Below, piece by piece: positions 259 to 29,041 of a stretch of DNA of 29,384 nucleotides. The first letter of the stretch is position 1; the number at the start of each line of letters is the position of its first letter. The DNA comes from a virus. Below the pieces are notes generated by a model, which ran no database searches, was not told the DNA's origin, and saw nothing but the letters and a program-made list of their open reading frames with translations. Made by a program: the position numbers and the translations under genes. Location of the stretch: positions 1-29,384 of the IMG/VR virus record IMGVR_UViG_3300017710_000037; one strand, 5' to 3'.

Positions 259-1198
259 ATGTCAGCGTATAGCCATATGTTTCTATGGTCAGTATCGTGC
301 GGGTGACTACTTAGCAGATTACTTTCAGCAAATAGCTGATGCCGCGGGCTGTACAGTGGACTTCTTCTGTAGTAGTAAGCGTATTGCAACCTATGAGTTT
401 TCAAAATCTGCAGAAGCACAGGGTAAAAATGCCGCTGAGTATGTGGATGCATCTGATCTAGAATCTAAACTATGGAACAAGTGGCGAGCTAAATCAGTTA
501 ACATAATACCAGATTCAGTGGATGCTACCTTTAAGGAGCGTGACTGTCCTCGCAATGGTATATTCTATTCAATGAGCGACAGCATAAGACTAAAGACTGA
601 GTATGAGAACGCTAACCACTTTGTGTATGACCTAGTCTTGCTAACACGTTATGATGTACTGCTTTCACCAGGTAATATGCTGAATTACCTAAGACGCTGG
701 TACAATGACATTGGTCTAGTTGAGTTCGAACAGACTATGGGCTATCCGCTGTATAATAATTGGCTAATGGTGCAACCCCTATACACAAAGGACTGGGGTA
801 CCTGGGGACTACAGGATATAGTTGTGGTGGGTTCAAGTTATAGTATGGATGCTCTAGCAACAGAACTACAGTTCATTATGTATGGAAACCTAGAACAATT
901 TGCTAGTAAGTCACCCATAGTACATACAATGTGTGGGCACACCAGTCTATTAACTGCCGCAAGATCTGCTGGCTTGTGTTGTACTGCAAAATATCCGTTT
1001 GTGGATATACGAACTGATAAACTTACATATGATGAAAGTGTGCCACGCGATAAGCGTAAGCCCGCTATAGAGTTTAGTCTATTACGTGATACCTGGGATC
1101 TAGATAAGTTAACAGCAGAATGCCCTGTGGATTCACACAAGGCAGTAAGGTTCTACACTAGACAATGGATACAGGATCGTATAAAGATTAAGTTATAA
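239..1198 (+). CDS. Glycosyltransferase/capsule-type conserved protein (putative)
   Basis: This is a 319-residue protein. The start at 239 is preceded by AGGT eight bases upstream and overlaps the previous gene by 20 bases. Near the N-terminus IAICFYGQYRAGDY resembles the opening beta strand and loop (IALCFSGQ.R type) of uncharacterised capsular-polysaccharide and glycan proteins. In the middle, VLLTRYDVLLSP resembles the lRyDv strand-and-acid segment seen in the same proteins. No signal peptide or membrane segment is evident. Family knowledge points to sugar transfer or polysaccharide synthesis; the substrate is unknown. It is transcribed against the large minus-strand modification operon and overlaps its last gene by 11 bases at the 3' ends. 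A role in glycan decoration would fit that operon, but this is inference. Confidence 0.6.
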   Translation: MKRFAHKCQRIAICFYGQYRAGDYLADYFQQIADAAGCTVDFFCSSKRIATYEFSKSAEAQGKNAAEYVDASDLESKLWNKWRAKSVNIIPDSVDATFKERDCPRNGIFYSMSDSIRLKTEYENANHFVYDLVLLTRYDVLLSPGNMLNYLRRWYNDIGLVEFEQTMGYPLYNNWLMVQPLYTKDWGTWGLQDIVVVGSSYSMDALATELQFIMYGNLEQFASKSPIVHTMCGHTSLLTAARSAGLCCTAKYPFVDIRTDKLTYDESVPRDKRKPAIEFSLLRDTWDLDKLTAECPVDSHKAVRFYTRQWIQDRIKIKL

Positions 1199-2099
1199 GA
1201 TCTACGCTTAACCAAGTCTGCGTTGTCCATACGTTAAACCAATCCTGTTCAGTTAAATTTGCATGTTGTGCATTTGCATAAGCAAGTACTGGTGCAGTAC
1301 TGTAACAGTGTACAGGATCATCAGCTGATACATACGCTTCAAGTTTGTTTTTGAGTATCCATCTAGCCTGCTGTTGGTACTGAGCGAGGTTGTGTCGTTG
1401 TACGTCTGATGGTGTGCGTGGCGTAAAACTGGGTTGTTGTCTAAATAAAACCTGTGTGTATATATGTTTCTGTGGACGTAGCATACCATCTTTTACAACC
1501 TGTACGTCATCTGTCCATACACAATGTCCCAGATGCTTGCCCAGTGTAGCATACCCCAACAGCAAAGCCACAGGATTCTGTTGTTCATAGTATGCTTCCT
1601 GAAACCAAGTTCTCTCTTCTAGTTCTATATCACGCTGTATCTCAAGTTCAGTTGCTTGTGTACCAAAATCAAGTACAGCATAATTAACAGGATCATTTAT
1701 CCTACTCCACATGATCTGTTCCATCTGGTGAACGTATTGGTTTATCTGCTGTAGTGTATCATGTGCAGACTGTGGTAACTCATCTTTATGCAGTTCTTCT
1801 TTTGCATGAAACTGTTGATGCAGGGTATTAAGTTTCTCCTGTGTAACTGTATCTATATCCTCTGGCCAATCCAAATAAAAATCATACTGTTCCATTTGTT
1901 TAACGTTGTGCAATATGTTTGTGTTGCACTCTGTTATATCACGAAAGCGTGGGAAGTCAGGCTCCATACTTATACGTGGTGTTAACTCTTCTCGGCTTTG
2001 TTTTAATTGCATCTGTTGCCACCATGCATCTGCTACAGGTGCATCAACTAAATCAAATAATATTTCTGTGTTTGTAAAATTAAAACTAATTTGTTTCAT
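1188..2099 (-). CDS. Uncharacterised Gln-rich protein, partner candidate of radical SAM enzyme
   Basis: This is a 303-residue protein with no recognised domain. It is unusually rich in Gln (34 residues by my count, about 11%) and in Trp and His, and has only two Cys. It opens with a beta-like segment ISFNFTNTEILFDL and has a segment LNTLHQQFHAKEE near residue 90 in a predicted helical region. Similar short LNxLHxxF segments occur, from memory and unverified, in uncharacterised marine-phage proteins. The start codon lies 14 bases inside the end of the radical SAM gene and has a GAGGT ribosome site, so translation is probably coupled. It is the last gene of the minus-strand operon. It could be a substrate carrier, an adaptor or an enzyme of unknown fold. 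Confidence 0.7.
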   Translation of the reverse strand: MKQISFNFTNTEILFDLVDAPVADAWWQQMQLKQSREELTPRISMEPDFPRFRDITECNTNILHNVKQMEQYDFYLDWPEDIDTVTQEKLNTLHQQFHAKEELHKDELPQSAHDTLQQINQYVHQMEQIMWSRINDPVNYAVLDFGTQATELEIQRDIELEERTWFQEAYYEQQNPVALLLGYATLGKHLGHCVWTDDVQVVKDGMLRPQKHIYTQVLFRQQPSFTPRTPSDVQRHNLAQYQQQARWILKNKLEAYVSADDPVHCYSTAPVLAYANAQHANLTEQDWFNVWTTQTWLSVDLIT

Positions 2100-3207
2100 A
2101 TATTACCTCATATAATTCTGGATTAACACTTCGTAAATCTGTATCTCGAACTGCGTCCAACTTCTCATTATAATATTTAAACTGTCCTATTAGTTCTTCT
2201 TTATTGTCTGGTTCTTCAAATAGTATATTGCGTAGGTGTTCTATGCCCTTGCTGTCTTCAAACTGTTCTAAATTTAATTTTTTTAATAATTGTTCTTTAT
2301 ATCCACTTGGTAATAGATTAATATTTAAAAAGTTTGGTGTGCGTAATACATTAAAGTAGTAGATGTCTGCAACACCTATATGCTTTAGATGTTCTATAGT
2401 TTTATCCAGTTCGTGTATTGTTAATATACTTGTGGTTATGTTTGCCTGTACTCTATGGTATTCTGCTAAACGTTTAATATTGTTTTCAAGTGTTTGCCAC
2501 ACTGTACCAGTTCTTGCATACTCTGCTAGTTCACCAACTGCATCCACGCTTACAGCAACACTTAACCTAGTGAACTTCTCCCACATATCCAGAGCGTCCA
2601 TACCTTTATACTGTGTCTTCATTAGATTAGTATTGTATCTAACATGTACGTCCCACATCTCATTATCATAAAGTGTTTTTAATATATCCCAATGTGTGTT
2701 ATTAATAAGTGGTTCACCACCTGCAAAGTAAACTGATTTACAATGCTGTAGGTTTTCCTTAAATGCTTCTATAGTGTTTGTCTTTGTGCCTTGAACTATT
2801 GTGTCGCTTATGGGCATGTGATAGTATAGACTGTCTTCTTTATGTTTAAGAGCCTCACTATTCCACATACTGCTACTGTATGGTCCGCATATCCTACATG
2901 CCATGTTACATAGGTTATCATCTCTAATATCCCAATGACTTAGATGATTGCTGTCTTCATGCATTGCACTAAAGCGTGTGCGAGGACTATCTAATCCTGC
3001 ATCCTCACTTAGCCAACATATCTTACAACTTGAGTCTTTAATATCATTTGCTAGGTTATCTCTTACACGTTTAAACTGTGGACTTGCGTATGCTTGTTGT
3101 AGCGTATGGTCTTTAGCATTTAGTCCAAGGCTTGCTTGATCACAACACATTGTAATGTCGCCATTGGGTCTTACATGTATTCCACTATCTGCTAGTACGC
3201 AACGCAT
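2086..3207 (-). CDS. Radical SAM protein with N-terminal twitch domain
   Basis: This is a 373-residue radical SAM enzyme. The SAM-binding [4Fe-4S] motif is C100-x3-C104-x2-C107 (LCNMACRICGP), followed by the GGEP motif at 163-166, which contacts the SAM amino group in this superfamily. Ahead of the barrel, residues 11-64 carry VRPNGDITMCC and a later CKIC, the pattern of an auxiliary-cluster twitch (half-SPASM) domain placed at the N-terminus. This is the layout of the N-twitch radical SAM family. Such enzymes make carbon-centred radicals on peptides, sugars or other small substrates; the substrate here is unknown. The start overlaps the sulfotransferase-like gene by 23 bases, and an AAGAG precedes it. 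A second enzyme of the same layout lies at 5526-7061. Confidence 0.9.
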   Translation of the reverse strand: MRCVLADSGIHVRPNGDITMCCDQASLGLNAKDHTLQQAYASPQFKRVRDNLANDIKDSSCKICWLSEDAGLDSPRTRFSAMHEDSNHLSHWDIRDDNLCNMACRICGPYSSSMWNSEALKHKEDSLYYHMPISDTIVQGTKTNTIEAFKENLQHCKSVYFAGGEPLINNTHWDILKTLYDNEMWDVHVRYNTNLMKTQYKGMDALDMWEKFTRLSVAVSVDAVGELAEYARTGTVWQTLENNIKRLAEYHRVQANITTSILTIHELDKTIEHLKHIGVADIYYFNVLRTPNFLNINLLPSGYKEQLLKKLNLEQFEDSKGIEHLRNILFEEPDNKEELIGQFKYYNEKLDAVRDTDLRSVNPELYEVIYETN

Positions 3208-3844
3208 TATATAACTCTTTTAGTTCGTCGTAGTTTGTAACTACGCTTTGTTTGTCTGGACTCATTTCTATTGGATTGTCTATTAACTTAATGGGCTCAG
3301 TGCCTGTAAGCATACTCCAAATACTATTGGGATTGCTAGGCAGTTCTTCTGTGTACAATACAGTATCAGCTTTTACATAATCTATTATTCTATTTGTGTT
3401 ATCTATTGTTCCTCCGTACTCACGTTCAAAGAAACTTTCCCTAATAGTTATGGGTATGCTATCCTGATTATTAATAAATTGCTTTTTTTGTTTTGCAATG
3501 CATAAACTTAATGTTGCTTCAAATAAATCTTTTCTTGTTAATACTATATTGTAGTCACACATATCATAAAATACTTTATCTATACTATGTGCTTGCAAGT
3601 GTCTTAGATCTATACTGTGTAACTTTGCTAACCAATTTGGTTCTCTCTTAAACGCTTGTAGCATAGCAGTGTAATCTTCTTTAGTAGTTCTAAATGGTTC
3701 ACTTCCTCTGTGTAAATTATTAAATAGTGTATTAAAATTATTGTAATTATTCCTTAAATGTTTCTTTAACCCAGTATATAAAAAACTACTTCCACTTCTA
3801 GGCACTGCCCATATACATATTCTTTTACTTGCTGGTGTAAGCAT
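3185..3844 (-). CDS. Sulfotransferase-like protein
   Basis: This is a 219-residue protein. Residues 12-21 (WAVPRSGSSF) match the P-loop-like 5'-phosphosulfate-binding loop of PAPS-dependent sulfotransferases (PxSGTT/S type). Residues 100-113 (IVLTRKDLFEATLS) match the 3'-phosphate-binding strand-helix with its conserved Arg and Ser. Family knowledge: the sulfuryl group of PAPS is moved to a hydroxyl or amine, often on a sugar. The protein is short for the family (usually 250-350 residues), so it may be a minimal version. It starts with a one-base TAATG overlap with the preceding gene and a GAGGT ribosome site. Placed between an unknown gene and a radical SAM gene, it probably acts on a product of this operon; the acceptor is unknown. 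Confidence 0.8.
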   Translation of the reverse strand: MLTPASKRICIWAVPRSGSSFLYTGLKKHLRNNYNNFNTLFNNLHRGSEPFRTTKEDYTAMLQAFKREPNWLAKLHSIDLRHLQAHSIDKVFYDMCDYNIVLTRKDLFEATLSLCIAKQKKQFINNQDSIPITIRESFFEREYGGTIDNTNRIIDYVKADTVLYTEELPSNPNSIWSMLTGTEPIKLIDNPIEMSPDKQSVVTNYDELKELYNALRTSR

Positions 3845-4653
3845 TAGGACCTCTGTGTTCTGCCCTGTCTAAACTCCTCTAGGTTTTTATACATTGTCAT
3901 CTTTTCAAATTTAAATATTTCACCTTTATATTCGCTAATTGTTACACGATCATTGTCTATTGTAAACATATGATTATCGTTTATAAAGAAATCACCATTT
4001 ACGTATTTGCATTCTATAGAACCTGGAAGTTCAAACCTATGTCCAAATCCTTCATCTAGCTCACGTATTTCCCAATAGGGTTGATCAAATGTTCTCATAC
4101 GTACACCAGTATAGTATAGGTTTGGATTAGCAATTAGTTCATCTGTAAGTAAAGGTAATCTTTCCCAACAGTCTGAATAATCACTTAATACTACTTGCAT
4201 TGGCATATGTCCTTTGTCAAAGGCAACAAGACTTAATCTGCCATAACCTGGATGAAACTTATTATCCCACCTTTGCCTCCAATGTGCATGTGCAGGAGTT
4301 ACAAACTCTTCTACAGCATGAAGCCTGTGTACATCATATACCCAATTAATAAAAAAATTTCCTGTCTTTGATATTAGATAGTTTGCATTACTATCAAAAC
4401 TTTCTACATTAAATAGTTCTGATAATTGTTTGGGTAACCAATAATTTGTAAATTCTTCTTTGGATACAAAATAGCATTGAAATATATCAACACATTGTTG
4501 TACAGTCTTATACATTACTCTAAATTTAAAATTGTGTTTATCCTGTATGCGATTTAATTCTGTAATAATTTCTTCGTTATTATTACTAGTAAAACCATAG
4601 GACCTACCAGTTACATCATATAAGTCAAAGTCTAGTTCTTTTTTATATTTCAT
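3844..4653 (-). CDS. Uncharacterised protein in modification operon
   Basis: This is a 269-residue protein with no family I recognise. It looks soluble, aromatic-rich and probably alpha/beta in the first half. The last third (about 195-255) is beta-rich with short strands (VNGDFFINDNHMFTID, VTISEYKGEIFKFE), possibly a small barrel or sandwich. There is an HRLHAVEEFVTPAHAHWRQ stretch near residues 108-126 with several His, and a Cys-poor sequence overall. The start overlaps the SGNH-like gene by 11 bases with AAGGT upstream. Position between the SGNH-like and sulfotransferase-like genes suggests a step in the same pathway, either catalytic or as a carrier. No function can be assigned. Confidence 0.7.
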   Translation of the reverse strand: MKYKKELDFDLYDVTGRSYGFTSNNNEEIITELNRIQDKHNFKFRVMYKTVQQCVDIFQCYFVSKEEFTNYWLPKQLSELFNVESFDSNANYLISKTGNFFINWVYDVHRLHAVEEFVTPAHAHWRQRWDNKFHPGYGRLSLVAFDKGHMPMQVVLSDYSDCWERLPLLTDELIANPNLYYTGVRMRTFDQPYWEIRELDEGFGHRFELPGSIECKYVNGDFFINDNHMFTIDNDRVTISEYKGEIFKFEKMTMYKNLEEFRQGRTQRS

Positions 4654-5533
4654 TTAGTAGTACCTTATCAACATATCTTTCATATGTGTATTTACTATAG
4701 TGTCCGTTAATACATTGTATGGGGTTACCATCTGCTGTAACTTCTTCAAATACTTCACTAATACCATATACAAATAGACTTTTAAATTGTTCTTCTAGCC
4801 AATACAAAAGTTCTGGGTGTGGATAAGTTTGTTTAAAAGTTTTTAAGTCCTCTTGTGATTGATCACTCCAGCGTCTTACATAGTTCCAAGGAACATCTGG
4901 ATGGTATTTGTTATCACAAAAATTATGAAATGGATCTATAAACAGTACCGGACATGGACTAATACTTTTTGCACTAGTAACAAAACTATACGTCTGTAAT
5001 ACTCTTGCAGTTGCATCATCACCATATAGTAGATCAAGTTCCTCAAACTTACCGTAGCCTGGTTCTGCTGTTACGTCTGACCAACAACTTGTAACGTGGT
5101 TTACAGGATGTCTATCTATCCACTGTTCATAATAAGTTTTTCTATTTGGTACTGATAAACCAAACAACACCAGAGAATCTGATGTCATCTTTGGTATACA
5201 ATCTATAAATGTTTTGTAAATGGCATTGTTACTGTTACCACTTGTTGCTTGCATATCGTATTCACAATTAAGTTTGCGAGCTAGTATTGCACCCATGCTG
5301 TAGTAGTTTGGATGGATACTAGAACGTTTTATAGAGCCATTAATAAATTTTATGTATTTGTCTCGTTGTGTGTCCGTAAATGGTTTTGTTGGAACGCCAT
5401 GGTGATCAAGTTCAATCTTTGTACCCACTGCATCACTTGCGTCCTTTAGGAACTCTGCCTCATCAAACTCATGCTGGTGTGACTCTTCACCATACATAAA
5501 ACTATCACCAAAGATAAAAATTTTATCAGGCAT
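4643..5533 (-). CDS. SGNH/GDSL hydrolase-like protein
   Basis: From the start at 5533 this is a 296-residue protein. Block I is FIFGDSFMYG with the nucleophile Ser at residue 11. A block III-like GNSNN at 99-103 follows ATS. Near the C-terminus INGHYSKYTYERY offers the His of block V, but the usual Asp three residues before it is replaced by Ile, so a catalytic dyad or a diverged site is likely. SGNH proteins are esterases or O-acetyl transfer or removal enzymes, often on polysaccharides. I chose this start and not the one eight codons upstream because it places GDS at the usual distance from the N-terminus and gives an ATGCCTGA overlap of 8 bases with the radical SAM stop. It fits acyl editing of a glycan in this operon (inference). 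Confidence 0.8.
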   Translation of the reverse strand: MPDKIFIFGDSFMYGEESHQHEFDEAEFLKDASDAVGTKIELDHHGVPTKPFTDTQRDKYIKFINGSIKRSSIHPNYYSMGAILARKLNCEYDMQATSGNSNNAIYKTFIDCIPKMTSDSLVLFGLSVPNRKTYYEQWIDRHPVNHVTSCWSDVTAEPGYGKFEELDLLYGDDATARVLQTYSFVTSAKSISPCPVLFIDPFHNFCDNKYHPDVPWNYVRRWSDQSQEDLKTFKQTYPHPELLYWLEEQFKSLFVYGISEVFEEVTADGNPIQCINGHYSKYTYERYVDKVLLNEI

Positions 5534-7061
5534 CTGCACACTCCTTACATACAGCAAGGTATTCTTTTAGCTCAGGGAATACAGATTCAAAATCATATCC
5601 TCTACGTAACTTGTATTCATTTACAAACTGATAAAAACGTTTTCTATTCTGTTTTACTGTAAGGCTATCATCATAACGTACATGAATAACCAGATCAAGT
5701 ACAATGCGTTTAAGTTTATCAATTTCACCAGGCTCAAACGCTAGGTTCTCATTCCAACCTGGGTATACACAATTATTAACCATGAAGTCCAAGCAGGGTA
5801 CTAGGTAATCTTCAACTACTTGTTTTGTTAGGTTACGTGCATCTAAAAACTCTGGCGAACGTACATAGGGTATATCAATGTATACTCTTTTAAAACTTTT
5901 CTTTGTGGGTCTGGTTGTTTGTGGATTTGTAATAGATGAGAACTTGCCTAAGTCAACTACTGTATCGTCCTTTACCCAATATTGCATGTCGCAACTATTG
6001 TATTCACGTTTTAGTGATAACACATATTTTAAGAATCCCAAAAAGGATGGAGCACTTAATAAATTAAATGCACTCATGAATGTTACTTTTGTATCAGGTG
6101 TATTGTCAAGGAAGTATGTAATATTATTTTTAAACTGGTTCCAGTTCATTCCATCTCTAATAAACTCACATTGTTTACCAGTTGCTTCAGCACTTGTGAA
6201 TAACGTAAAGTTCTTAACACATTTCTTTTCCTGTAGTTCTTTAATCTTTACTACAAACTTTTTCCATAACTTATCAGGTACATTACCATTACTGTTAATT
6301 GCAAACTCTAATTCAGGATTAGGTTCTGCTATTAACTGATCTATAACTTTAAATGTGTGCTTGCTTAGTAACGGCTCACCACCTGTAATTCTAAATGTGT
6401 GCATGTTGTCTTTGGCTTTGGGGAACCATTTCCAAAATGCATCTGTATATGGATTGTCTTCTTTGTTCTTAACTTGTGATACAACATCACTACCACCATT
6501 AAAAAGCATCTCGTCTAGTTTATAAGGACCATGTTCCTTAATTTCTTCTACCCACTTACTACTGAAGTTAGGTCCACAGTATGCACATTTAAAGTTACAC
6601 ACATTACTAAAACTTACTTCCACATAACGTGGAAAGATATTCTCACTGCCATCTGCTTTTACAATCTCATCATAGTCATCAAAACTATATGGATCAATGC
6701 TTTTATATATTCTATCACTAAAACTGCCAGTGTCACCATCTTCAACTCGCCAGCAGTAATCACACTCTTTGGGTCTTTCACCACAGAGCATTTGCCTACG
6801 TTGTTCTTTTTTATGCTTGGTATTGTGCAATGCACCAGGATTCTTTTCTAATTCTTCTAATGGAATCCTATGTGGAGTAGGGTGGTGACAACTATGTGTA
6901 AGTCCTGTCCCCAAATGCATTGTAACTTGTGTCCACTTAGCCAGACAGAATCCAGGACCTTTGCTATCCAAAAGGTCCTTCATTTGATTCATATTGTTTG
7001 GTGAAAGTTTTCTATTGCCCCAGGAAGTTTTTTCCCACTGCAAGTCGTTTATTTTTTTCAT
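5526..7061 (-). CDS. Radical SAM protein with N-terminal twitch-like domain and C-terminal extension
   Basis: This is a 511-residue enzyme. The SAM cluster motif is C155-x3-C159-x2-C162 (VCNFKCAYCGP), with GGEP at 227-230. The N-terminal part has Cys at 39, 58, 93, 100 and 103, including SCHHPTPHR and ECDYCW, a twitch-type auxiliary cluster region ahead of the barrel. It is about 140 residues longer than the second copy at 2086-3207, mostly through inserts and a long C-terminal part (about 390-511) that ends in CKECADA, with extra Cys in PCLDFMVNNC. The start is in a 4-base ATGA overlap with thyX. The reaction is a radical chemistry step on an unknown substrate. The two copies are clearly diverged, so they probably carry out different steps. 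Confidence 0.9.
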   Translation of the reverse strand: MKKINDLQWEKTSWGNRKLSPNNMNQMKDLLDSKGPGFCLAKWTQVTMHLGTGLTHSCHHPTPHRIPLEELEKNPGALHNTKHKKEQRRQMLCGERPKECDYCWRVEDGDTGSFSDRIYKSIDPYSFDDYDEIVKADGSENIFPRYVEVSFSNVCNFKCAYCGPNFSSKWVEEIKEHGPYKLDEMLFNGGSDVVSQVKNKEDNPYTDAFWKWFPKAKDNMHTFRITGGEPLLSKHTFKVIDQLIAEPNPELEFAINSNGNVPDKLWKKFVVKIKELQEKKCVKNFTLFTSAEATGKQCEFIRDGMNWNQFKNNITYFLDNTPDTKVTFMSAFNLLSAPSFLGFLKYVLSLKREYNSCDMQYWVKDDTVVDLGKFSSITNPQTTRPTKKSFKRVYIDIPYVRSPEFLDARNLTKQVVEDYLVPCLDFMVNNCVYPGWNENLAFEPGEIDKLKRIVLDLVIHVRYDDSLTVKQNRKRFYQFVNEYKLRRGYDFESVFPELKEYLAVCKECADA

Positions 7062-7720
7062 AAATCATTTGCAAGTGGAAATATCTCTGCAATAACTTTA
7101 CTACATGCATGTGCGATATCCATATGTTCCTTCTGTGTACCATTAGCACCACGAAGTTCGATATAGTGAATCCAGCTACGCAAAGTTCCATTCATATACA
7201 ATCTTGTTTTTGTGTTGCCTTCTGGTAGAACAACACGAGCCTGTTCCTTTGCAATACCATTTGCAATAGCCCATTCATATACTTCTTTGGCTTTTTCAAT
7301 TACTGATTCCTGTTTCATTTGCCATTCGTAATGCAAATCACTTTCAGTATCAATCTCTACGCTATTCTGTCTGTTCTTTAGATCCTGTAGTCGTGCTTCA
7401 CGTGTTACAAACTGATTACCAAATTCTGCAGGGTCTGCATAACGTTGACTAAACTCCTGGAAAGCAAATGAACGGTGACGTACAATTTGATGTGCAATGT
7501 CACGAGTTGTGTTGATCTCCAGACAAGCACTTACCATTTCCAATGGCGACCAGTGTGCATGTTTAATTAGATACTTAATAAGTTTCTCGCTAGTTTCACT
7601 ATTCATTTGATTGCTAGGGTTGCTTACCCTTGCACAAAATGCAATAAGGTCCTGTACATTATCCAAGCCTTCTGCTTGAAAGTGTTCACTAGGTTTACTG
7701 TAACTTACTAATTTAATCAT
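7058..7720 (-). CDS. thyX: Flavin-dependent thymidylate synthase ThyX
   Basis: This 220-residue protein has the diagnostic ThyX motif RHR-x7-S at residues 81-91 (RHRSFAFQEFS), preceded by HWSPLE (56-61), and the C-terminal block ARVVLP...RSWIHYIELR. It makes dTMP from dUMP using FAD, NADPH and methylenetetrahydrofolate, and so supplies dTTP for phage DNA replication. Length matches the family. It overlaps both neighbours by 4 bases (ATGA) and has a GGAGG about 12 bases before the start. It is a nucleotide-metabolism gene placed inside what otherwise looks like a glycan/radical SAM operon. No key residue appears to be missing. Confidence 0.96.
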   Translation of the reverse strand: MIKLVSYSKPSEHFQAEGLDNVQDLIAFCARVSNPSNQMNSETSEKLIKYLIKHAHWSPLEMVSACLEINTTRDIAHQIVRHRSFAFQEFSQRYADPAEFGNQFVTREARLQDLKNRQNSVEIDTESDLHYEWQMKQESVIEKAKEVYEWAIANGIAKEQARVVLPEGNTKTRLYMNGTLRSWIHYIELRGANGTQKEHMDIAHACSKVIAEIFPLANDL

Positions 7721-8697
7721 TCTAATGTGTCCTCCACTTGATCTTCACGAACTTGTGCTCCAAGTCTACTTGGATTAATATATACTTCTTTAAAGAAGGC
7801 ACTGCCTTCTACTCCCATGTCTGCGATTTTAAGTTGTAGTTGCTTACGCAGATCATATCCCAATTCTACAGTCTTATCCTTCAGCTTCGTTTTATCCCAA
7901 CGCATACCTGTGTTAATACAAAGTTCATCACCACCTTCAAACTGTGGAAACAATTCATCTTCAAAGAACTTTGTAAGCCAGCGGAAGTCACGTACATTTT
8001 TCCAATCCCAGTCTTCTCTGGTTACGTTAGTCATATGACAACCAAGTCTAGCGCCGTACACTGCCCATAGTCCATTAACAACATCTTCTCCTACACTCAT
8101 CCAAGTAAGTAATCGTTTAAAGTTTTTGTCATGTATTAGATGTAACTTCTCTGGTGGTATAACATCACCGTCTGCTAATCCCATTTTAACACCTTCTCTA
8201 AATCCTGCACGCCACGCTTGCAGTGGCGATCCATTGTTCATTACTTGGCAGTAGATGTTATTCATTTGTACGTAATGTATATTCCAACAAAAGTCTACCT
8301 GGGCTCGCTTATCATTTTCAGGTGCCGCTTCATGTGTACGCATACTCATTACCACATCCTTAGGCCAACATTTAATTCCACCGTTGCCATAAACAAGTCC
8401 ATTAACTTCGTTTTTTCCTGCCCAACTAATCACATCCATGTCTCTAATCTTAGACATGTCTAGTTCACAGTTAAAAAATTCTGGATCAACAATATTATCT
8501 GCATCAACAGTTATAAACCTATCTGTGTCTGCAATCTGTGCCGCCGCCTTATGTGCGGCATCTGATCCAAATACACCATGACTTCGCTTTGCCCATGGAC
8601 ATTTGTCTACAAGGTCTGCATAGTTATTGTCTGCGTTTGGCTCATCGAACGATATAAAAACTATATCAAATTCATTTACGCTAGTTAGTTCTGCCAT
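7717..8697 (-). CDS. Glycosyltransferase-like protein (GT-A type)
   Basis: This is a 326-residue protein. The N-terminus has the DIVFISFDEPNAD strand-loop of a nucleotide-sugar-binding Rossmann half. A DxD-like motif lies in ITVDADNIVDP (Asp 65 and Asp 67), the metal and sugar-nucleotide site of GT-A transferases. Later NGNGGIKCWP resembles the acceptor-side loop of these enzymes. A strong AGGAG lies six bases before the start at 8697. The start overlaps the previous gene by 17 bases and the end overlaps thyX by 4 bases. It is probably a sugar transferase acting on a virion protein or host glycan; donor and acceptor are unknown. This type of protein is common in T4-like marine phages. Confidence 0.82.
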   Translation of the reverse strand: MAELTSVNEFDIVFISFDEPNADNNYADLVDKCPWAKRSHGVFGSDAAHKAAAQIADTDRFITVDADNIVDPEFFNCELDMSKIRDMDVISWAGKNEVNGLVYGNGGIKCWPKDVVMSMRTHEAAPENDKRAQVDFCWNIHYVQMNNIYCQVMNNGSPLQAWRAGFREGVKMGLADGDVIPPEKLHLIHDKNFKRLLTWMSVGEDVVNGLWAVYGARLGCHMTNVTREDWDWKNVRDFRWLTKFFEDELFPQFEGGDELCINTGMRWDKTKLKDKTVELGYDLRKQLQLKIADMGVEGSAFFKEVYINPSRLGAQVREDQVEDTLE

Positions 8698-9667
8698 ATG
8701 TGTCTCCTAAATAATTTGCTACAAGTCCTTTTGACCTGTATACAATAAGCGGCTGTCTTGGCCATTTAAAATCTATATCTACTTCAAACGATTCACCTGA
8801 ATACAAAGAAGGTGTGCTTACAAGAAACGAACCAACAGGAGCATCTATTTCTCCATCACACACAACAAACCTTACATTTTTAGTACGGGGTGCGGTGTTA
8901 TCCATTTCTACTACAAAACTTTGTATCTTTACAGTATCACCATGATTCATTATCATAACATGGCAGGTATCAGAAGTACCTGCTACCTGTAAAACTTGTT
9001 GTTTGTTCATATAGTAGTCCGACTCAACAAGCCTGTCAAGTACCTGTAATCCATAGCTATGAAAAATCGGTCTAGTAAATATACTTATGTTATCTAAATC
9101 TGCATGTTTTGTAATATCACTTGATAAACTATACTTTAGTTTTTTATTGTGTAACAGTATCATAGGATCAACCTGTACACTTTCTATAAGATAATCTGGA
9201 TCACCTTTCTTTGTAAAGTAAAGGTTAAGTAAACTATTATCAGATGACTTACTTATATCAGCAATATCAGCTAGGTTCATATTCTTTTTAATAACATGAT
9301 AGTTTGCTACAATTTCTAGTTGTAAGTTTTCTTTAAATAATTGTATTCCAATATCAACGTTTGTATTTGCTTTTTCGTTTGTAACTTCTAATAGACGACT
9401 GCTTAGTTCTTTAATTATAAGTACATTACTCTTTGCACCTATATCCCATGTACGGTTTTCAATATCAAATACTGGACCGATTGTGCGGCGGCTACGTTTA
9501 CCACTAAGTACTTCACGAGCCATACTATTATAAGTCTCTATCACAATGATATCTTCCTCTTCCTCATCCGGAATAGGAGTCATTGACATCTGTAATATTT
9601 TACCTGTATTACTGTTGAACTTGACGTAATAACTTGGATTGTAATCTGTAACTGTCTCGTTGTCCAT
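8681..9667 (-). CDS. Conserved phage protein of unknown function with acidic patch
   Basis: This is a 328-residue protein. It opens with YYVKFNSNTGKILQMSMTP, a short beta-hairpin pattern seen in uncharacterised T4-like marine phage proteins (recollection, unverified), followed by an acidic run PDEEEEDIIVIE at about 33-44 and SGKRSRR at 55-61. The rest looks beta-rich and ends in FKWPRQPLIVYRSKGL, which is sandwich-like. It sits between two glycosyltransferase-like genes. The annotated start lies 59 bases inside the upstream gene, with an AGAAG about 9-10 bases before it. A shorter start at Met27 (9589) would remove the overlap but has no visible ribosome site. It may be structural or an acceptor or adaptor for the glycosyltransferases; I cannot decide. 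Confidence 0.65.
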   Translation of the reverse strand: MDNETVTDYNPSYYVKFNSNTGKILQMSMTPIPDEEEEDIIVIETYNSMAREVLSGKRSRRTIGPVFDIENRTWDIGAKSNVLIIKELSSRLLEVTNEKANTNVDIGIQLFKENLQLEIVANYHVIKKNMNLADIADISKSSDNSLLNLYFTKKGDPDYLIESVQVDPMILLHNKKLKYSLSSDITKHADLDNISIFTRPIFHSYGLQVLDRLVESDYYMNKQQVLQVAGTSDTCHVMIMNHGDTVKIQSFVVEMDNTAPRTKNVRFVVCDGEIDAPVGSFLVSTPSLYSGESFEVDIDFKWPRQPLIVYRSKGLVANYLGDTYGRTN

Positions 9668-10457
9668 TAAATATATCTTCTGTTAGAAAGTCAGGCTCTT
9701 TATAGTAAAGTATACCAGTGGTTGCATAGTTTTGTATTTTTACTGTGCCACCTTCTCTTACCCAAACGTTTAAATAGTCTGTCCATTTTTCTGCTCTTTG
9801 TTTGTAATATGTGTTAGCAATGTCCATATCAATATAAAATAGCATATCGTCTGTAACATTCTCTAATGCCATATCATTAATAATAATTCCGTGCATAACA
9901 TCTGAACTATAATTATCTGGCAGGTGCTGTGGCAAAAACTTGTGCTTAAACAGTTCATGGTAGTTTTGCATATATGGATCAGCAAGTTTAAAGTAATCCA
10001 TTGATGCATCTGTTTTCTTAAAATAAAACCAAGCACTGTATACAGGCATAAGTTTATATTCATCTAACCATTCATGTCTTCTATCTGAATCTACAAGTAA
10101 ATGTCTAAAATCTTTTATCATGCCTGGAAAGCATATCTCATAATTAGCTGATAGATAATCCCATACTGTATCCAAATTACTATTCACAATAGATGCACAA
10201 TCCATTACAATAGTTTCTTCATATGGTGTTACCCACCAAGACTGCCAATCATTTATTCTTGGGTTAATTTTATTAGCAAAAGGATACTCAACAATATTAT
10301 CAAATGGCTCTTCATGCCAAGTTTCAATATCATCTAAGTTACCACAAACAAGTGACACACTTGCTTCAGGGTTATTAGTCTTAATACTGAATCCTAATGC
10401 AACGGCTTGTTTGCGTTCATCTTCTGTTTGTGCTTGGATTAAATAACCCTGGCTCAT
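9609..10457 (-). CDS. Glycosyltransferase-like protein
   Basis: This is a 282-residue protein. The N-terminal half has the alternating strands of a GT-A fold (YLIQAQ, ASVSLVCGN). The metal-site position reads IVMDCASIV (Asp86), where a DxD would be expected, so the acidic pair is reduced to a single Asp. The protein is Trp- and Tyr-rich (WQSWWVTPYEE) like its neighbour at 10457-11341, and the two may be diverged paralogues. The start shares one base with the previous stop (TAATG) and has AGGAG upstream. It is probably a sugar transferase in a pathway with its neighbours. The loss of a clean DxD makes catalysis less certain. Confidence 0.65.
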   Translation of the reverse strand: MSQGYLIQAQTEDERKQAVALGFSIKTNNPEASVSLVCGNLDDIETWHEEPFDNIVEYPFANKINPRINDWQSWWVTPYEETIVMDCASIVNSNLDTVWDYLSANYEICFPGMIKDFRHLLVDSDRRHEWLDEYKLMPVYSAWFYFKKTDASMDYFKLADPYMQNYHELFKHKFLPQHLPDNYSSDVMHGIIINDMALENVTDDMLFYIDMDIANTYYKQRAEKWTDYLNVWVREGGTVKIQNYATTGILYYKEPDFLTEDIFNGQRDSYRLQSKLLRQVQQ

Positions 10458-11341
10458 TAAGAATGCTCCTTTAAAATATCACCAGCATTTCTACTTAACG
10501 CTCGTTTATTCATACAGTGTATATCAATATCTTTTACATTGCTTAAAATATTTTTCCATTCTTCTCTCCTGTTGTTTACAAGAAAGATCCATTCAGTTTC
10601 TCTAACTTCAACTAAATCATCCTGTTGTAACATATTCACAATAGGTATCCCACCAAAGTTACCAATTGTATCTCCTTCAACCATTCCATTTAGAATATGA
10701 ACTGCTATACTAACGCAATAGTCTGTTCTAAATAAAGTTCCTGGAAAATTATAAATGTATTGATAAAAACTATAGTTCTCTGCTATATGTGACCATGTAT
10801 CAAAAAATAATTGTGTAAGTTCACTTCTATCAAACATAATTACAGTACTCCACCACATGGGGATACCTGCATCATATAGTAACCTTTCACGATGGTGCAT
10901 GTTACCATTTCTTAAGTCTTGTGAAGTGTTAAACATATTGAGTCCTGGGTGTTCCCAGAACTTTGATAAAAAGTCAGTACGAATCATATAGTCAATATCA
11001 ATTAACAATGTTTGATGATAGGGACTATACTCGTAAATCTTATGTTTGTTATTGTTTGTGAACTGTGCAACAAAGGTTGCATACGGACTGTCGTAATGTT
11101 TACGTTTATTATTAACTTGTTCTTCTTGTGTAATTACAACTTCATCTATGTATTTGTCAACAAGATCTTGTCCATGGCTTTGTGTTAGGTAAGCCCATGT
11201 TCCTTCATCTGTTATTAGACATACTGGTACGTCTAAATGTTTCTTTGCTTGTTTTGCCGCTAGTAAACTAAAATATCCATAATCAAGTTGTTCATTATTA
11301 TAGGCAAACATGCAAACGCCACGCTTTGCACTATACTCCAT
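10457..11341 (-). CDS. Glycosyltransferase-like protein (DxD type)
   Basis: This is a 294-residue protein. LLIDIDYMI (Asp115 and Asp117) is a clear DxD motif at the end of a hydrophobic strand, as in GT-A fold sugar transferases of the GT8-like sort. The N-terminal VCMFAYNNEQ and VPVCLITDEG strands fit the donor-binding half, and WWSTVIMFDRS fits the acceptor-side strand. There is no membrane segment. It directly follows the 115-residue gene (TAA then ATG with no gap) and shares one base with the next start. It is the first enzyme gene after the sigma70-type promoter at 11713-11741. Donor and acceptor are unknown; a role in virion or surface glycosylation is inferred. Confidence 0.82.
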   Translation of the reverse strand: MEYSAKRGVCMFAYNNEQLDYGYFSLLAAKQAKKHLDVPVCLITDEGTWAYLTQSHGQDLVDKYIDEVVITQEEQVNNKRKHYDSPYATFVAQFTNNNKHKIYEYSPYHQTLLIDIDYMIRTDFLSKFWEHPGLNMFNTSQDLRNGNMHHRERLLYDAGIPMWWSTVIMFDRSELTQLFFDTWSHIAENYSFYQYIYNFPGTLFRTDYCVSIAVHILNGMVEGDTIGNFGGIPIVNMLQQDDLVEVRETEWIFLVNNRREEWKNILSNVKDIDIHCMNKRALSRNAGDILKEHS

Positions 11342-11689
11342 TTACCAATCCATAATTTTCTTGATGCTTCTCATCTTTTTTAGTTTATTGTATTCAACAT
11401 CATATTCATTAGTTGCACTTGTGTATGCACTAATAAGGTCGTCAAAGAATCCTTGTAGGTTTTTAATTTCAACTGGGTTGTCTTTACTATCAATTATTAC
11501 TGCTTCAGTTTTACCAATATCCAGTAATGTCTTTACAAAACTTATTAGACTAGGTTCAGAACTAAAACTACCACCATTTGTGTGTACAAGTTTTAGTTGG
11601 TTTACTCTATTCCTAATATTTTGTTTTTGATTTGTGAAAGTAAGATTGTAGTTCGAGAACTCCAGAGCTTTCTGTAGACGTTCGTCCAT
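11342..11689 (-). CDS. Small conserved phage protein, first gene of the modification operon
   Basis: This is a 115-residue protein that looks mainly helical: an N-terminal amphipathic helix (ERLQKALEF), then a central VKTLLDIGKTEAVIIDSKDNP strand-turn, and a C-terminal helix rich in Lys (EYNKLKKMRSIKKIMDW). From memory, proteins of this pattern occur in T4-like marine phages next to tail-fibre genes, but no function is established. AGGAG lies seven bases before the start (11697-11701), and a perfect sigma70-type promoter precedes it, giving a predicted 5' leader of only about 17 bases. It could be a chaperone or a regulator of the downstream enzymes; this is speculation. Confidence 0.75.
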   Translation of the reverse strand: MDERLQKALEFSNYNLTFTNQKQNIRNRVNQLKLVHTNGGSFSSEPSLISFVKTLLDIGKTEAVIIDSKDNPVEIKNLQGFFDDLISAYTSATNEYDVEYNKLKKMRSIKKIMDW

Positions 11690-11712: not shown

Positions 11713-11741
11713 ATTATATATGTATTTATTAAGGATGTCAA
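11713..11741 (-). promoter_or_regulatory. Perfect sigma70 consensus promoter (TTGACA-N17-TATAAT)
   Basis: On the minus strand TTGACA lies at 11736-11741 and TATAAT at 11713-11718, with exactly 17 bases between. Both hexamers match the bacterial sigma70 consensus in full. It falls in the 59-base gap between the last fibre gene and the 115-residue gene, so transcription would begin near 11706 and run through the modification operon towards position 1188. Use by the host polymerase, possibly early in infection, follows from the consensus; the timing is inferred. Confidence 0.85.
11723..11730 (-). promoter_or_regulatory. Possible late promoter AATAAATA
   Basis: The minus strand reads AATAAATA inside the spacer of the sigma70-type promoter. 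It matches the NATAAATA form reported for T4-like cyanophage late promoters (established from memory). It may let the same operon be expressed late as well, but an 8-base AT motif can arise by chance. Confidence 0.35.
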
Positions 11742-11748
11742 GCACTAA

Positions 11749-12867
11749 TTATGGGTTAGGTGTCCAATTTTGTTCTGTAATTATTGTTGGAACCTTTGCA
11801 ATTCTAGTTTGAAATATGTATGCTGTACCATCAACTTTGTGTACTGAACCATTACTAGAACCTAACCAACCTGTATCAGGTGCATCTTGTGCTACTCTAT
11901 AACCAGTGTTAAGAGTAATGTTTGCATCTACTTGTGCAACATCATCAGCGTCTTCTGTAAGTTCTGTCTTGAGCCACAAGCAAAAATTTGTACCGTCCAT
12001 ACCTATTTTTGCATATACGGTTACTTCTCTACCACCATACTGTGCGTAACCTTCTCCAGATACATACACACCAGAATACGTATATTGTCCCGCGTATGCT
12101 CCTAAATCACCAGTATCAAATCCTTGTGCGTTAAAGATTTGTTGGTAGGTGTCATCAAATTCATAAAAACTTTTTATTCCTGTTCCGTTTGCGCCACCTT
12201 TTGTAGTTTGTTTGGCACCAACGTATATGGTATCTATTTGGTCAAATATATAATCCCATTCATTATGTCCAAAGGATCCGCCTATGGCTTCTAAATCAAT
12301 TATAATTTGGCCACCACTATTAAAGAAGTGTCTAGCGTCATTGTAGTCTGTCCATGTGTACTTTTGTATTGTAGTTAATGTACCTCTTGTAAGGGCACTG
12401 GCCGCATCATTTGTACCCCATGCTACGCCACCGTTGGAGTGTGCATGTGTTTCAATTAACTCTCCTGTTGCACCAAGATCAAACTTTGCATCAGTGTTTT
12501 CATAGGATGTCATTACTGCTTCTAATGGATTCATATCACTTGCTAGTACTACGTCAACGTTTTGTGTTACGTAGTTATTAATTGTCATAGAGGAATCTTC
12601 TCTATGGTATTCGCCACTATTAACGTGAGCCGCTAGTAGGTTATAATGCTTCGCTTCAATAAGTGTGTTGGCTGTCACTGTCATATTATTTGATGGTTGT
12701 CCCCAACCTAACCTTCTTAATACTTCACTTTTGTGTAAGCTAATATCATAGGTGTAGGCTATTGGATCACCATTACTGTCTTTTGGATCTTGCCACAGTA
12801 CATTCCAACGATCTACGACCGTGTTAAATGAAACTGCGGTAATTGTGTCACCAACATTACGAGGCAT
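11749..12867 (-). CDS. Tail fibre-like structural protein
   Basis: This is a 372-residue protein. The N-terminal part begins RNVGDTITAVSFNTVVDRWN and has a GWGQPSNN segment; repeated short Gly/Asn-rich segments follow. ETHAHSNGG holds an HxH pair like the iron-binding HxH motifs at the tips of T4-type fibres (only one is seen here). YNDARHFFNSGGQI is a phrase I associate with structural proteins of T4-like marine phages. The C-terminal VTVYAKIGMDGTNFCLWLK is a beta-strand pattern. It shares one base with the preceding stop (TAATG). As the last gene of the tail operon, it is probably a receptor-binding or fibre component; the exact role is inferred. Confidence 0.75.
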   Translation of the reverse strand: MPRNVGDTITAVSFNTVVDRWNVLWQDPKDSNGDPIAYTYDISLHKSEVLRRLGWGQPSNNMTVTANTLIEAKHYNLLAAHVNSGEYHREDSSMTINNYVTQNVDVVLASDMNPLEAVMTSYENTDAKFDLGATGELIETHAHSNGGVAWGTNDAASALTRGTLTTIQKYTWTDYNDARHFFNSGGQIIIDLEAIGGSFGHNEWDYIFDQIDTIYVGAKQTTKGGANGTGIKSFYEFDDTYQQIFNAQGFDTGDLGAYAGQYTYSGVYVSGEGYAQYGGREVTVYAKIGMDGTNFCLWLKTELTEDADDVAQVDANITLNTGYRVAQDAPDTGWLGSSNGSVHKVDGTAYIFQTRIAKVPTIITEQNWTPNP

Positions 12868-13778
12868 TATTTTGTTCCTACTACGACTTCAATTAATTCT
12901 ATGCCTTCGCTGTCCTTGTCTGCTAACGCTCTGCCGACAATGCGATACCAATCGAGTGCTTCTTGCTTCTCGTAATCTGAGACTGCTCGAGCAGTTCCTG
13001 GTTCTTCACTGCTTACAAGTCTTTGACCTTTACGTACTGGACCAATTACTTTACAAGGTACACGACCTTCTAATGCAACCGCCACTGTTGTACCTTCCAT
13101 TGCACTATTCATTAAGTACGCTGGATTTGAAGATACAATACCGAAAACCTCAGAGCTAAATGCTTCTGTTGTTTGTGTGACTTCTGCTTCACCACCTATC
13201 ATAAGAACTGTACCTGGATCATATTCCTGATCGCTTGAATAAAGTTCTGCTAAGTCAGCGTATAACGCTCTGGTTGCTGTACCGTGATAAAAGAAATCTG
13301 TACCTGTGCCTGTAGTTGGGTTTAGGTTGTAACCTTTACTAATTGTAGTAAATATTGCCTGTACCGCCGCTGATGGAGTATGAGTTGTGCTAACTGTAAA
13401 TGGTTCATGTGAACTAATTACTGCAATAATACTTCCACCTGCTTTCATGATAATAACTTGCTTATCATTACCTAGGTTATCTTGAATGGTATGTAGCTCG
13501 CTACCACCTCCCATGCTAACCCAGTTTGCACCATCATAGTATTTCATTTCTTTATCTGCGGCTGTATTGTCAAACCAAATTTGTCCTTCTGAAGGATTAC
13601 TTGGTGCAGTACCGCCAGCAAAATGTTCTAATAGATGTAATAGGTTTTCAGCAATAACTTCACCATAGCCGTAGTAGTTTTTACCTACTAAACTTAGGCT
13701 AGTTTCAATATTAAGTGTTCCGTCATTGACTGTAATGGCAGTTTTTGTGCCGTCAGAATAATCAACTGTATAAGCCAT
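12867..13778 (-). CDS. Tail fibre/baseplate protein with Peptidase_G2-like C-terminal region
   Basis: This is a 303-residue protein. Residues 35-71 (YYGYGEVIAENLLHLLEHF, then GGTAPSNPSEGQIWFDN) match the N-terminal module shared by many cyanophage-type tail proteins. The C-terminal part (about 160-303) has ADLAELYSSDQEYDPGTVL, a GIVSSNPAYLMN loop and VPCKVIGPVRKGQRLVSS. This pattern is like the Peptidase_G2 or intramolecular chaperone regions that fold and may autocleave fibre proteins. Whether the catalytic residues are intact cannot be judged by eye. The ribosome site GGGAG lies in the end of the upstream gene. It is expected at the distal baseplate or fibre tip. Confidence 0.8.
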   Translation of the reverse strand: MAYTVDYSDGTKTAITVNDGTLNIETSLSLVGKNYYGYGEVIAENLLHLLEHFAGGTAPSNPSEGQIWFDNTAADKEMKYYDGANWVSMGGGSELHTIQDNLGNDKQVIIMKAGGSIIAVISSHEPFTVSTTHTPSAAVQAIFTTISKGYNLNPTTGTGTDFFYHGTATRALYADLAELYSSDQEYDPGTVLMIGGEAEVTQTTEAFSSEVFGIVSSNPAYLMNSAMEGTTVAVALEGRVPCKVIGPVRKGQRLVSSEEPGTARAVSDYEKQEALDWYRIVGRALADKDSEGIELIEVVVGTK

Positions 13779-13780
13779 TT

Positions 13781-14380
13781 TTAACTCCCTGCCTGTATTC
13801 TAATTGTATAGATCACTTGGATCTTTCTGTTTGCACTCTTTTCAATAGGGTGGAAACAGATGTGACTTAACCTTGTATCAGCCGCTGTCTGCAGGGCTAC
13901 TTCATCAAAGGTAAAGTTTCCGTTCATTGATGTTGTATTGTCTGTTGTCTCTTGGCCTGCTGGCTCCGCATAATCTAGAGTAGCAGTAACAACAACATCC
14001 GAATATGGTTGTCCGTCATAAGGCTGGATCTCCACTTTATTATTTGTGGTATCTGTGTTAGCCGGATCGTCTACATCAACAATCTTTGTATATGTTTGGT
14101 TATATAGATCACCTAGTTTGGTGTCTGTGTTTGTGGATCTGTATTCAACGTTTCCTACTGCGTCAATAACGGTTCCACCGTTGCCAAATTTCATTTGTAC
14201 AACTTGGAATCCTTGACCGGAAACAGTTGTTCCACTTAATAGACTAGCAATAGCAACACTAAAGTTTTCATAGTTAATTGCATTGTGTTTGTCTAGTAGA
14301 ACTTCATTTGTATCGTAATCTCGTATTAGCACATGTCCATCGACGAATGCTAAGGTACGATCAGCAAAATTAGTGTTCAT
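13781..14380 (-). CDS. Virion structural (baseplate/tail) protein
   Basis: This is a 199-residue, beta-rich protein. It has DGHVLIRDYDTNEVLLDKHNAI at residues 14-35, a typical opening of small T4-like marine phage structural proteins, and the C-terminal block HICFHPIEKSANRKIQVIY with TIRI, which I recognise from the same group. AGGAG lies six bases before the start (14387-14391). It lies between the giant baseplate-like gene and the fibre gene, in the place where T4 carries its gp8/gp9-type wedge and connector proteins, but I see no specific similarity to those. Baseplate or fibre-connector role is inferred. Confidence 0.75.
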   Translation of the reverse strand: MNTNFADRTLAFVDGHVLIRDYDTNEVLLDKHNAINYENFSVAIASLLSGTTVSGQGFQVVQMKFGNGGTVIDAVGNVEYRSTNTDTKLGDLYNQTYTKIVDVDDPANTDTTNNKVEIQPYDGQPYSDVVVTATLDYAEPAGQETTDNTTSMNGNFTFDEVALQTAADTRLSHICFHPIEKSANRKIQVIYTIRIQAGS

Positions 14381-29033: not shown

Positions 29034-29041
29034 TATTTATA
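29034..29041 (-). promoter_or_regulatory. T4-type late promoter TATAAATA
   Basis: The minus strand reads TATAAATA, the exact T4 late promoter element recognised by the phage sigma factor gp55. Taking the element to span -13 to -6, transcription would start at about 29028, the first base of the gp25 start codon. It stands directly after the T-run of the HNH terminator. The motif match is seen; use and exact start are inferred. Confidence 0.8.

Follow-up and report, generated by a model that had tools for sequence, protein, structure and literature searches.

A conserved glycosyltransferase core behind the tail genes of uncultured T4-like phages, with exchangeable radical-SAM cassettes and a possible role in tail-fibre glycosylation

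The closest described system is the host-recognition cluster of pelagimyophages, in which tail-adjacent glycosyltransferases, a UDP-glucose dehydrogenase and radical-SAM cassettes have been reported (PMC7029224). Like the locus analysed here, this hypervariable cluster combines tail fibres, GT8-type glycosyltransferases and sugar-nucleotide genes, with the UDP-glucose dehydrogenase among LPS-type genes, and its radical-SAM gene cassettes vary between relatives. It differs in that its description gives no fixed core (sm-GT3-GT2-U3-GT1, see the feature list), promoter of its own or order of tailoring, no sulfotransferase is mentioned, and the cluster is interpreted as modifying the host O-chain (PMC7029224). 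The statement of the first-pass annotation that no described phage pathway has such a gene set was thus too strong. As far as found in the literature, the conserved core, its promoter and its breadth are undescribed, tail-linked glycosyltransferase and radical-SAM cassettes having already been reported.

Other T4-like genomes carry many radical-SAM genes as exchangeable modules: 12 in the marine T4-like TARA_ERS488813_N000010 (PMC5332604) and 11–12 in the Campylobacter phages CP220 and CPt10 (PMC2853527). In the available parts of these sources, however, the genes are not tied to glycosyltransferases or tail genes; Fe-S assembly genes, which are encoded in records related to our locus, also occur in the marine genome (PMC5332604). 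Soluble glycosylation of virion proteins by virus-encoded enzymes is established for chloroviruses, whose glycosyltransferases lack ER signals, act on virion proteins outside the host pathway and are accompanied by sugar-nucleotide enzymes, but these are eukaryotic viruses and the target is the capsid (PMC7019647). Capsid glycans are also reported for mycobacteriophages Che8 and Rita (cited in PMC11256854), which have a few glycosyltransferases together with glycans on virion proteins; the target there is the capsid, and no radical-SAM, SGNH or sulfotransferase gene is known to take part. Among isolates, Vibrio phages K566 and K567 provide the sole matches to rSAM1 and rSAM2 (22–26% identity, several adjacent radical-SAM copies) and are without matches to GT3, GT1, sm or SULT, none of which is matched anywhere among 50,697 isolate records. 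The Che8 and Rita transferases are from different families, and we know of no radical-SAM tailoring in chlorovirus glycosylation.

The window, i.e. the whole stretch of 29,384 nucleotides that was analysed, comes from a T4-superfamily phage (gp25 and gp6 lie in it); gp23 was found in six of six related records, including a near-identical 70-kb record. The features of the island and its surroundings are the following.

29034..29041, minus strand: TATAAATA, late promoter motif of the T4 type ahead of gp25 and the tail module; no other lies on that strand
12867..14380, minus strand: S2 and S3, virion/tail-fibre genes before S1 (PHROGs tail fibre, virion structural, unknown)
11749..12867, minus strand: S1, virion gene of tail/fibre type immediately upstream of the island
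11713..11741, minus strand: island promoter, TTGACA-N17-TATAAT, perfect sigma70 consensus, in the S1-sm gap
11342..11689, minus strand: sm, conserved first gene of the island, 115 aa
10457..11341, minus strand: GT3, GT-A glycosyltransferase, GT8-like; invariant D115xD117 and H275
9609..10457, minus strand: GT2, GT8-type glycosyltransferase
8681..9667, minus strand: U3, core gene, non-enzyme-like, several beta-sandwich (FN3/Ig-like) domains
7717..8697, minus strand: GT1, probable GT-A glycosyltransferase, most conserved core gene; invariant D65xD67
7058..7720, minus strand: ThyX, FAD-dependent thymidylate synthase (151.4 bits, cut-off 87.9)
5526..7061, minus strand: rSAM2, N-twitch radical SAM, 511 aa; C155xxxC159xxC162, GGE; N-terminal C39, C58, C100, C103
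4643..5557, minus strand: SGNH-hydrolase-like; GDS, GxSN, GHYS; TTG start doubtful, ATG about 9 codons downstream
3844..4653, minus strand: U2, seen only in this virus and in two records near-identical to it
3185..3844, minus strand: SULT, probable sulfotransferase; PRSGSSF loop; invariant R16, R104, S113
2086..3207, minus strand: rSAM1, N-twitch radical SAM, 373 aa; C100xxxC104xxC107, GGE; N-terminal C3, C21, C22, C64
1188..2099, minus strand: U1, accessory; conserved LNxLHxxFH and INxxVHxxE

In the gene map of the window, 11 minus-strand genes are joined without gaps from 1188 to 11341, which bears out the compact operon proposed in the first-pass annotation. Overlaps range from 1 to 59 bases (GT3/GT2 1, GT2/U3 59, U3/GT1 17, GT1/ThyX 4, ThyX/rSAM2 4, rSAM2/SGNH 32, SGNH/U2 11, U2/SULT 1, SULT/rSAM1 23 and rSAM1/U1 14), with TAATG and ATGA forms among the junctions. 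The operon had been started one gene too late, at 11341: sm, which abuts GT3 with 0 bases between, is a twelfth member behind the perfect sigma70-type promoter. Three genes rather than two are uncharacterised (U1, U2 and U3), and one is a thymidylate synthase, ThyX, which bears no relation to glycans. The order is repeated in hundreds of independent contigs, which argues against chance.

Across related loci, the sm-GT3-GT2-U3-GT1 core keeps a fixed order directly behind tail genes. These lie upstream in all 69 of the GT3-found loci with at least three upstream genes and in 60 of 61 GT1-found loci, and the linkage holds at identities down to about 30%. Of the 76 GT3-found loci having an upstream gene, 73 have sm directly 5' of GT3, and GT1 is present in every GT3-found locus with 6 kb downstream (52/52). 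Since radical-SAM genes follow the core in only 40 of 52 GT3-found and 38 of 61 GT1-found loci, they can be called accessory; the core also occurs in a minimal form that lacks them, and minimal islands end after GT1-GT1. The region after GT1 turns over quickly, pairs whose GT1 are 75–85% identical sharing 29% of their downstream genes. The closest cousin is collinear to ThyX, after which two unrelated radical-SAM genes replace rSAM2-SGNH-U2-SULT-rSAM1-U1. Scans with S3 and rSAM1 as single proteins found three loci each, among them the L211 cousin, in which the fast-diverging S1 stands at 49% and S3 at 86%. A second, unrelated core, in which GT7 is fused to laminin-G domains, carries the same radical-SAM family and, by inspection, also lies behind fibre-like and laminin-G genes. 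Hundreds of uncultured phages share the arrangement, which is absent from the isolated phages searched.

Radical-SAM, SULT, SGNH, U1, U2 and ThyX genes are thus exchangeable between islands, and this cassette exchange leads us to reject one indivisible eleven-gene pathway. The joint pathway first proposed is supported for the core, which stands in order behind tail genes and mostly has at least one radical-SAM gene after it, but not for the whole, as accessory genes are swapped, radical-SAM-free islands exist and ThyX is a nucleotide gene. Unrelated contexts without co-occurrence, which the first-pass annotation had named as the outcome that would speak against a joint pathway, were not seen in the related loci whose gene order was checked.

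The individual assignments differ in strength. Both radical-SAM genes match the whole NCBIfam model N_Twi_rSAM (NF033640) with 282.8 and 294.8 bits, above its curated cut-off of 170 bits, and keep CxxxCxxC, all cluster cysteines and GGE, which confirms them as N-twitch enzymes. A PDB sequence search with rSAM2 gave no match at the limits used; Foldseek gave radical-SAM matches at barrel level only, the best being SuiB, a peptide-modifying SPASM enzyme. As far as a barrel-level match goes, it counts against a sugar substrate. The three glycosyltransferase-like genes stand unequally: by glycogenin/GT8 similarity and DxD motif, the GT2 profile qualifies as GT8 (glycogenin-1, E=1.3e-7), GT3, with its invariant DxD, matches glycogenin weakly (E=0.055), and GT1 is probably a GT-A enzyme by its DxD motif. 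U3, whose AF2 model has a pLDDT of 89.4, is possibly a glycan acceptor or scaffold.

SULT is probably a PAPS-dependent sulfotransferase, mostly by its conserved PAPS-site motifs: the PRSGSSF-type 5'-phosphosulfate loop has an invariant R16, and the 3'-phosphate residues R104 and S113 are invariant in seven sequences, whereas the Pfam scores fall below cut-off (PF13469 E=0.014 in the window; PF13469 E=0.005 and PF00685 E=0.012 in L084). Its relatives are confined to this island type; a PDB sequence search gave nothing at the limits used, and a later profile gave insignificant matches only. The annotated SGNH hydrolase retains the GDS serine (D18, S19), GxSN (G107, S109) and the block-V histidine (H286), but the block-V DxxH aspartate is replaced in the window and in relatives, and the protein has neither a Pfam match nor a PDB sequence match at the limits used. 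U1 usually directly follows a radical-SAM gene and is fused to a methyltransferase domain in L093; searches with it returned insignificant matches only. ThyX is a passenger, its slot being occupied by DHFR-ThyA in L007, L008 and L015.

The island promoter is a 12/12 match to the sigma70 consensus. A match of at least 11/12 occurs in the S1-sm gap of 29 of 68 nonredundant loci versus 0.4% of Markov controls, and in none of 80 sites before GT3 or 104 before S1. Inside the promoter spacer lies AATAAATA, close to the T4 late motif, and ATAAATA is found within 60 nt in 34 of 75 loci (control, 5%). With its own sigma70-type promoter and an overlapping late-type motif, the island might have its enzymes ready ahead of tail assembly and keep them available while it proceeds. 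Early expression, as the sigma70-type promoter suggests, would be no less suitable for enzymes that act on the host.

Taken as a whole, the locus can be read as follows, a reading to which we give an even chance: the island would glycosylate a tail-fibre or adhesin protein in the cytosol, and the radical-SAM, sulfotransferase and SGNH enzymes would edit the glycan. Using host nucleotide sugars as donors, sm, the two GT8-type transferases, U3 and GT1 would build an oligosaccharide on a virion protein, the likeliest acceptor being the candidate S1 or the beta-sandwich protein U3. The exchangeable cassette behind GT1 would act afterwards: the two N-twitch enzymes may perform C-H chemistry on the sugar (epimerisation, dehydrogenation or deoxygenation), SULT may transfer sulfate from PAPS, the SGNH protein may remove or move acyl groups, and U1 and U2 may be helpers. 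The product might serve receptor contact or hide the fibres from host or competitors. The glycosyltransferases of these islands are cytosolic (non-membrane) and linked to virion genes, and relatives encode UDP-glucose dehydrogenase, NAD epimerase, RmlC, nucleotidyltransferases and a carbamoyltransferase, i.e. sugar chemistry. Near radical-SAM genes of Bdellovibrionota, glycosyltransferases and epimerases are only slightly enriched; because these neighbourhoods are mixed, this context is not counted as proof of sugar chemistry.

The target might instead be the host surface, which we consider unlikely, although it is the strongest of the alternatives. Soluble transferases would cap or rebuild, at the cytosolic face, the LPS core of the host or some other lipid-linked glycan; host exporters would bring the product to the outside, and the surface so changed would block competing phages or re-adsorption of progeny. 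The strong early-type promoter, the LPS-type GT8 family, a rapid gene exchange resembling that of O-antigen loci and a weak match of the SULT profile to an LPS sulfotransferase (E=0.84) all point this way, and such a role has been proposed for pelagimyophage glycosyltransferases (PMC7029224). Yet no flippase, polymerase, GtrA/GtrB-like or lipid-carrier enzyme occurs among 1609 island genes, the late-type motif overlaps the promoter, and the beta-sandwich U3 and the transferase-laminin-G fusions would be odd for LPS synthesis. None of these 1609 genes (not dereplicated) has four or more hydrophobic segments and those of the window have none; the few with one to three are for the most part unannotated, desaturase-like genes from the rSAM-free subclade. 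An O-antigen conversion of the gtrABC type, with multi-span GtrA, Gtr(type) and GtrB, is therefore rejected, while LPS as a target stays compatible with the missing membrane proteins because core lipopolysaccharide transferases are also cytosolic. Tail adjacency alone is also compatible with receptor modification. The gtr genes of P22 lie near its tailspike gene.

It is considerably less probable that the radical-SAM chemistry is directed at amino acids of a virion protein and that the residues so altered serve as substrates for the glycosyltransferases. SuiB as closest fold, large virion proteins adjoining the island and single loci with as many as seven or eight different radical-SAM genes in an array would fit, but there is no precursor-peptide gene and sugar-nucleotide genes abound instead. 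In the window operon, no intergenic gap between sm and U1 could hold such a gene; a RiPP maturation cluster was rejected, no small precursor-peptide gene lying there beside the radical-SAM genes.

A very improbable alternative is DNA hypermodification, in which transferases and radical-SAM enzymes would act on modified bases with a thymidylate synthase from the same operon. ThyX or DHFR-ThyA does lie between GT1 and rSAM2 in several loci, behind an early-type promoter. Of six related records searched for TET/JBP or pyrimidine hydroxymethylase genes, three have PF00303 matches. However, the six gave no TET/JBP (PF12851) match in a search without a positive control, the ThyA of L015 reads as an ordinary thymidylate synthase, either synthase is missing from most islands, and tail linkage and laminin-G fusions would be left unexplained. 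Least credible of all is the absence of a joint function, with metabolic genes gathering in a plastic, hypervariable stretch after the tail genes. Fast cassette turnover and the passenger ThyX would suit it, but the strict order and overlapping junctions of the core in essentially all loci examined, and the conserved promoter, speak against it.

Tail-fibre glycosylation can tentatively be extended to a wider proposal, possible if somewhat doubtful: in a widespread group of uncultured T4-like phages, a conserved soluble core would glycosylate the phage's own tail fibres, and swaps of radical-SAM and sulfotransferase cassettes would diversify the product. The analysis defines a minimal core of five or six genes and, for the uncharacterised N-twitch radical-SAM family, offers sugar editing as a context that can be tested. 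If the proposal is true, radical chemistry varies the sugar coat of phage adhesins, a recognition layer outside the fibre sequence; host recognition or stealth in a large share of uncultured T4-like phages would then depend on a phage-made glycan, and fibre sequence alone would be insufficient to predict host range.

The window is a 29,384-base fragment from IMG/VR. Its island is a gapless run of 11 minus-strand genes, preceded by the small gene sm:
11342–11689, minus strand: sm (115 aa), first gene of the island
1188–11341, minus strand, in operon order: GT3, GT2 (GT8-type), U3, GT1, ThyX, rSAM2, SGNH-like, U2, SULT, rSAM1, U1

The first-pass annotation was right about this gene list in outline, except that ThyX is a nucleotide enzyme and that three genes (U1–U3) rather than two are uncharacterised; its sulfotransferase (SULT) and SGNH calls are supported by motifs more than by curated family scores. 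Both radical-SAM genes are intact members of NF033640 with all cluster cysteines present. U1 (1188–2099, minus strand) has conserved LNxLHxxFH and INxxVHxxE motifs, which suggest a helical metal-binding protein paired with the radical-SAM genes. GTx (239–1198, plus strand), a convergent gene facing the island, has no Pfam match but is probably glycan-related; its family (39 members) also occurs within relatives' islands, often in tandem.

Related loci were ascertained with rSAM2 (best 80 of 196 loci), GT3 (best 80 of at least 589 relatives) and GT1 (best 80 of 597 relatives, 73 of the 80 being newly analysed); these samples partly overlap and retain the most query-like loci. In the best 80 GT3-found loci, tail genes lie upstream in 69/69 of those having at least three upstream genes, sm immediately precedes GT3 in 73/76, and GT1 and U3-like genes are found within 6 kb of GT3 in 52/52 and 50/52, respectively, with a radical-SAM gene in 40/52. 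Likewise, in the best 80 GT1-found loci, GT3 or GT2 is upstream in 61/61 and tail genes in 60/61, and a radical-SAM gene lies within 4 kb of GT1 in 38/61. Two island types lack any radical-SAM gene, one of them being a minimal island (sm-GT3-GT2-U3-GT1-GT1, then a convergent ThyX). The core therefore appears self-sufficient, radical-SAM, SULT and SGNH genes being additions. The joint pathway proposed at first is partly supported by gene order in relatives, which upholds a fixed core but not one indivisible set.

The cassette downstream of GT1 turns over rapidly: among the first eight genes after GT1, 29% have counterparts where GT1 is 75–85% identical and 18% where it is 65–75% identical. The closest cousin, L211 (tail gene S3 86% and GT1 90% identical), is collinear through ThyX, beyond which an unknown gene and a different pair of radical-SAM genes replace the window cassette; the most diverged gene is S1 (49%), the tail gene adjoining the island. 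The ThyX slot (7058–7720, between GT1 and rSAM2) is filled by DHFR and ThyA in L007, L008 and L015; judging from these loci, thymidylate synthases of different families replace each other at one locus.

The genes upstream of the island on its strand are gp25, gp6, one for a 3646-aa virion protein, then S3, S2 and S1. This is a T4-superfamily phage: gp23 is present in a related 70-kb record (99.9% identity across the compared 17-kb stretch) and in five other related records. By gp6, it comes closest among isolates to jumbo phages such as PA5oct and Atu_ph07 (32–37% identity). The 3646-aa protein (14406–25346, minus strand) has CBM_5_12 (chitin-binding type) modules near residue 3117. An HNH endonuclease gene (29059–29373, minus strand) lies directly upstream of gp25; after it come a GC-rich hairpin, a T7 run and a late promoter of the T4 type.

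Near the operon there is a single non-coding gap, between S1 and sm; it contains a perfect TTGACA-N17-TATAAT (11741–11713). At least 11 of the 12 consensus positions are matched there in 29/68 nonredundant relatives vs 0.4% of Markov controls, the -35 element mostly starting 48–58 bases ahead of the sm start codon; such matches occur in 0/80 cases before GT3 and 0/104 before S1. The S1-sm gap is also enriched in ATAAATA, the T4 late-promoter core (34/75 loci vs 5% in controls). The spacer of the window's sigma70-type promoter includes AATAAATA, and the full TATAAATA has a single copy on this strand of the window, at 29041, before gp25. The sigma70 consensus together with the enriched ATAAATA argues that the island from sm onward forms a separate transcription unit; it would have an early-type start and probably also a late-type one, the terms early and late being borrowed from T4.

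Relatives' cassettes encode UDP-glucose dehydrogenase, NAD epimerase, RmlC, carbamoyltransferase, nucleotidyltransferases, a GatZ/KbaZ-like aldolase, shikimate-dehydrogenase-like and SGNH-like proteins, a predicted repertoire of sugar-nucleotide and sugar-decoration chemistry. Among six related records, three encode A-type Fe-S carriers and one IscU, in agreement with PMC5332604. The AlphaFold model of U3 (mean pLDDT 89.4) has several beta-sandwich domains matching FN3/Ig-type chains (PDB) and uncultured-phage proteins (BFVD), with low whole-chain TM-scores. U3 thus looks like a protein for binding or structure, and its place locked between two transferases suggests a scaffold or acceptor. A second core type (L043, L045, L047, L080 and similar) reads c22-c20-GT7, GT7 being fused to laminin-G domains, with fibre-like and laminin-G proteins just upstream; downstream come laminin-G proteins and radical-SAM genes of the same family. 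L039 has a further sulfotransferase-like gene (12547–13299).

With middling confidence, we propose that the island would act in the cytosol, glycosylating a tail-fibre or adhesin protein, with the glycan then being edited by exchangeable enzymes. Gene order, linkage, promoter, motif integrity, exchange and the lack of membrane machinery are the observations behind it: no multi-span transporter, polymerase or lipid-linked transferase was found among 1609 island genes (near-duplicates included). Acceptor, substrate, timing and purpose we infer. The strongest rival, remodelling of LPS from the cytosolic face, is favoured by the early-type promoter and has been published as the interpretation for pelagimyophages (PMC7029224); we consider it the less probable of the two. 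Modification of amino acids by the radical-SAM enzymes is less likely; the window operon has no place for a precursor-peptide gene, because no gap separates its genes. DNA hypermodification is also less likely.

The ingredients are known separately (PMC7029224, PMC5332604, PMC2853527, PMC7019647 and PMC11256854). In the literature searched, mostly outside subscription papers, no description was found of the fixed core, the conserved promoter or the minimal form, nor of two core types with one common radical-SAM family or of the sulfotransferase subtype.

In species genomes, rSAM2 relatives (L164–L197) are nearly all from Bdellovibrionota, a predatory lineage, often as arrays; the family cut-off is exceeded in 41/144 sampled Bdellovibrionota genomes vs 0/14 named controls. 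Three genome matches (L174, L187, L191) contain phage-type islands; the three are probably phage contigs that were misbinned. The concentration in Bdellovibrionota, together with the intermixing of phage and bacterial copies in the tree, points to repeated radical-SAM gene exchange between phages and Bdellovibrionota, which are possibly hosts or gene-exchange partners of such phages. Among isolates, Vibrio phage K566 carries five radical-SAM genes that match the family. They sit among hypothetical genes, close to annotations for nicotinamide phosphoribosyltransferase and PagP, and the phage could be a culturable partial model of the radical-SAM part.
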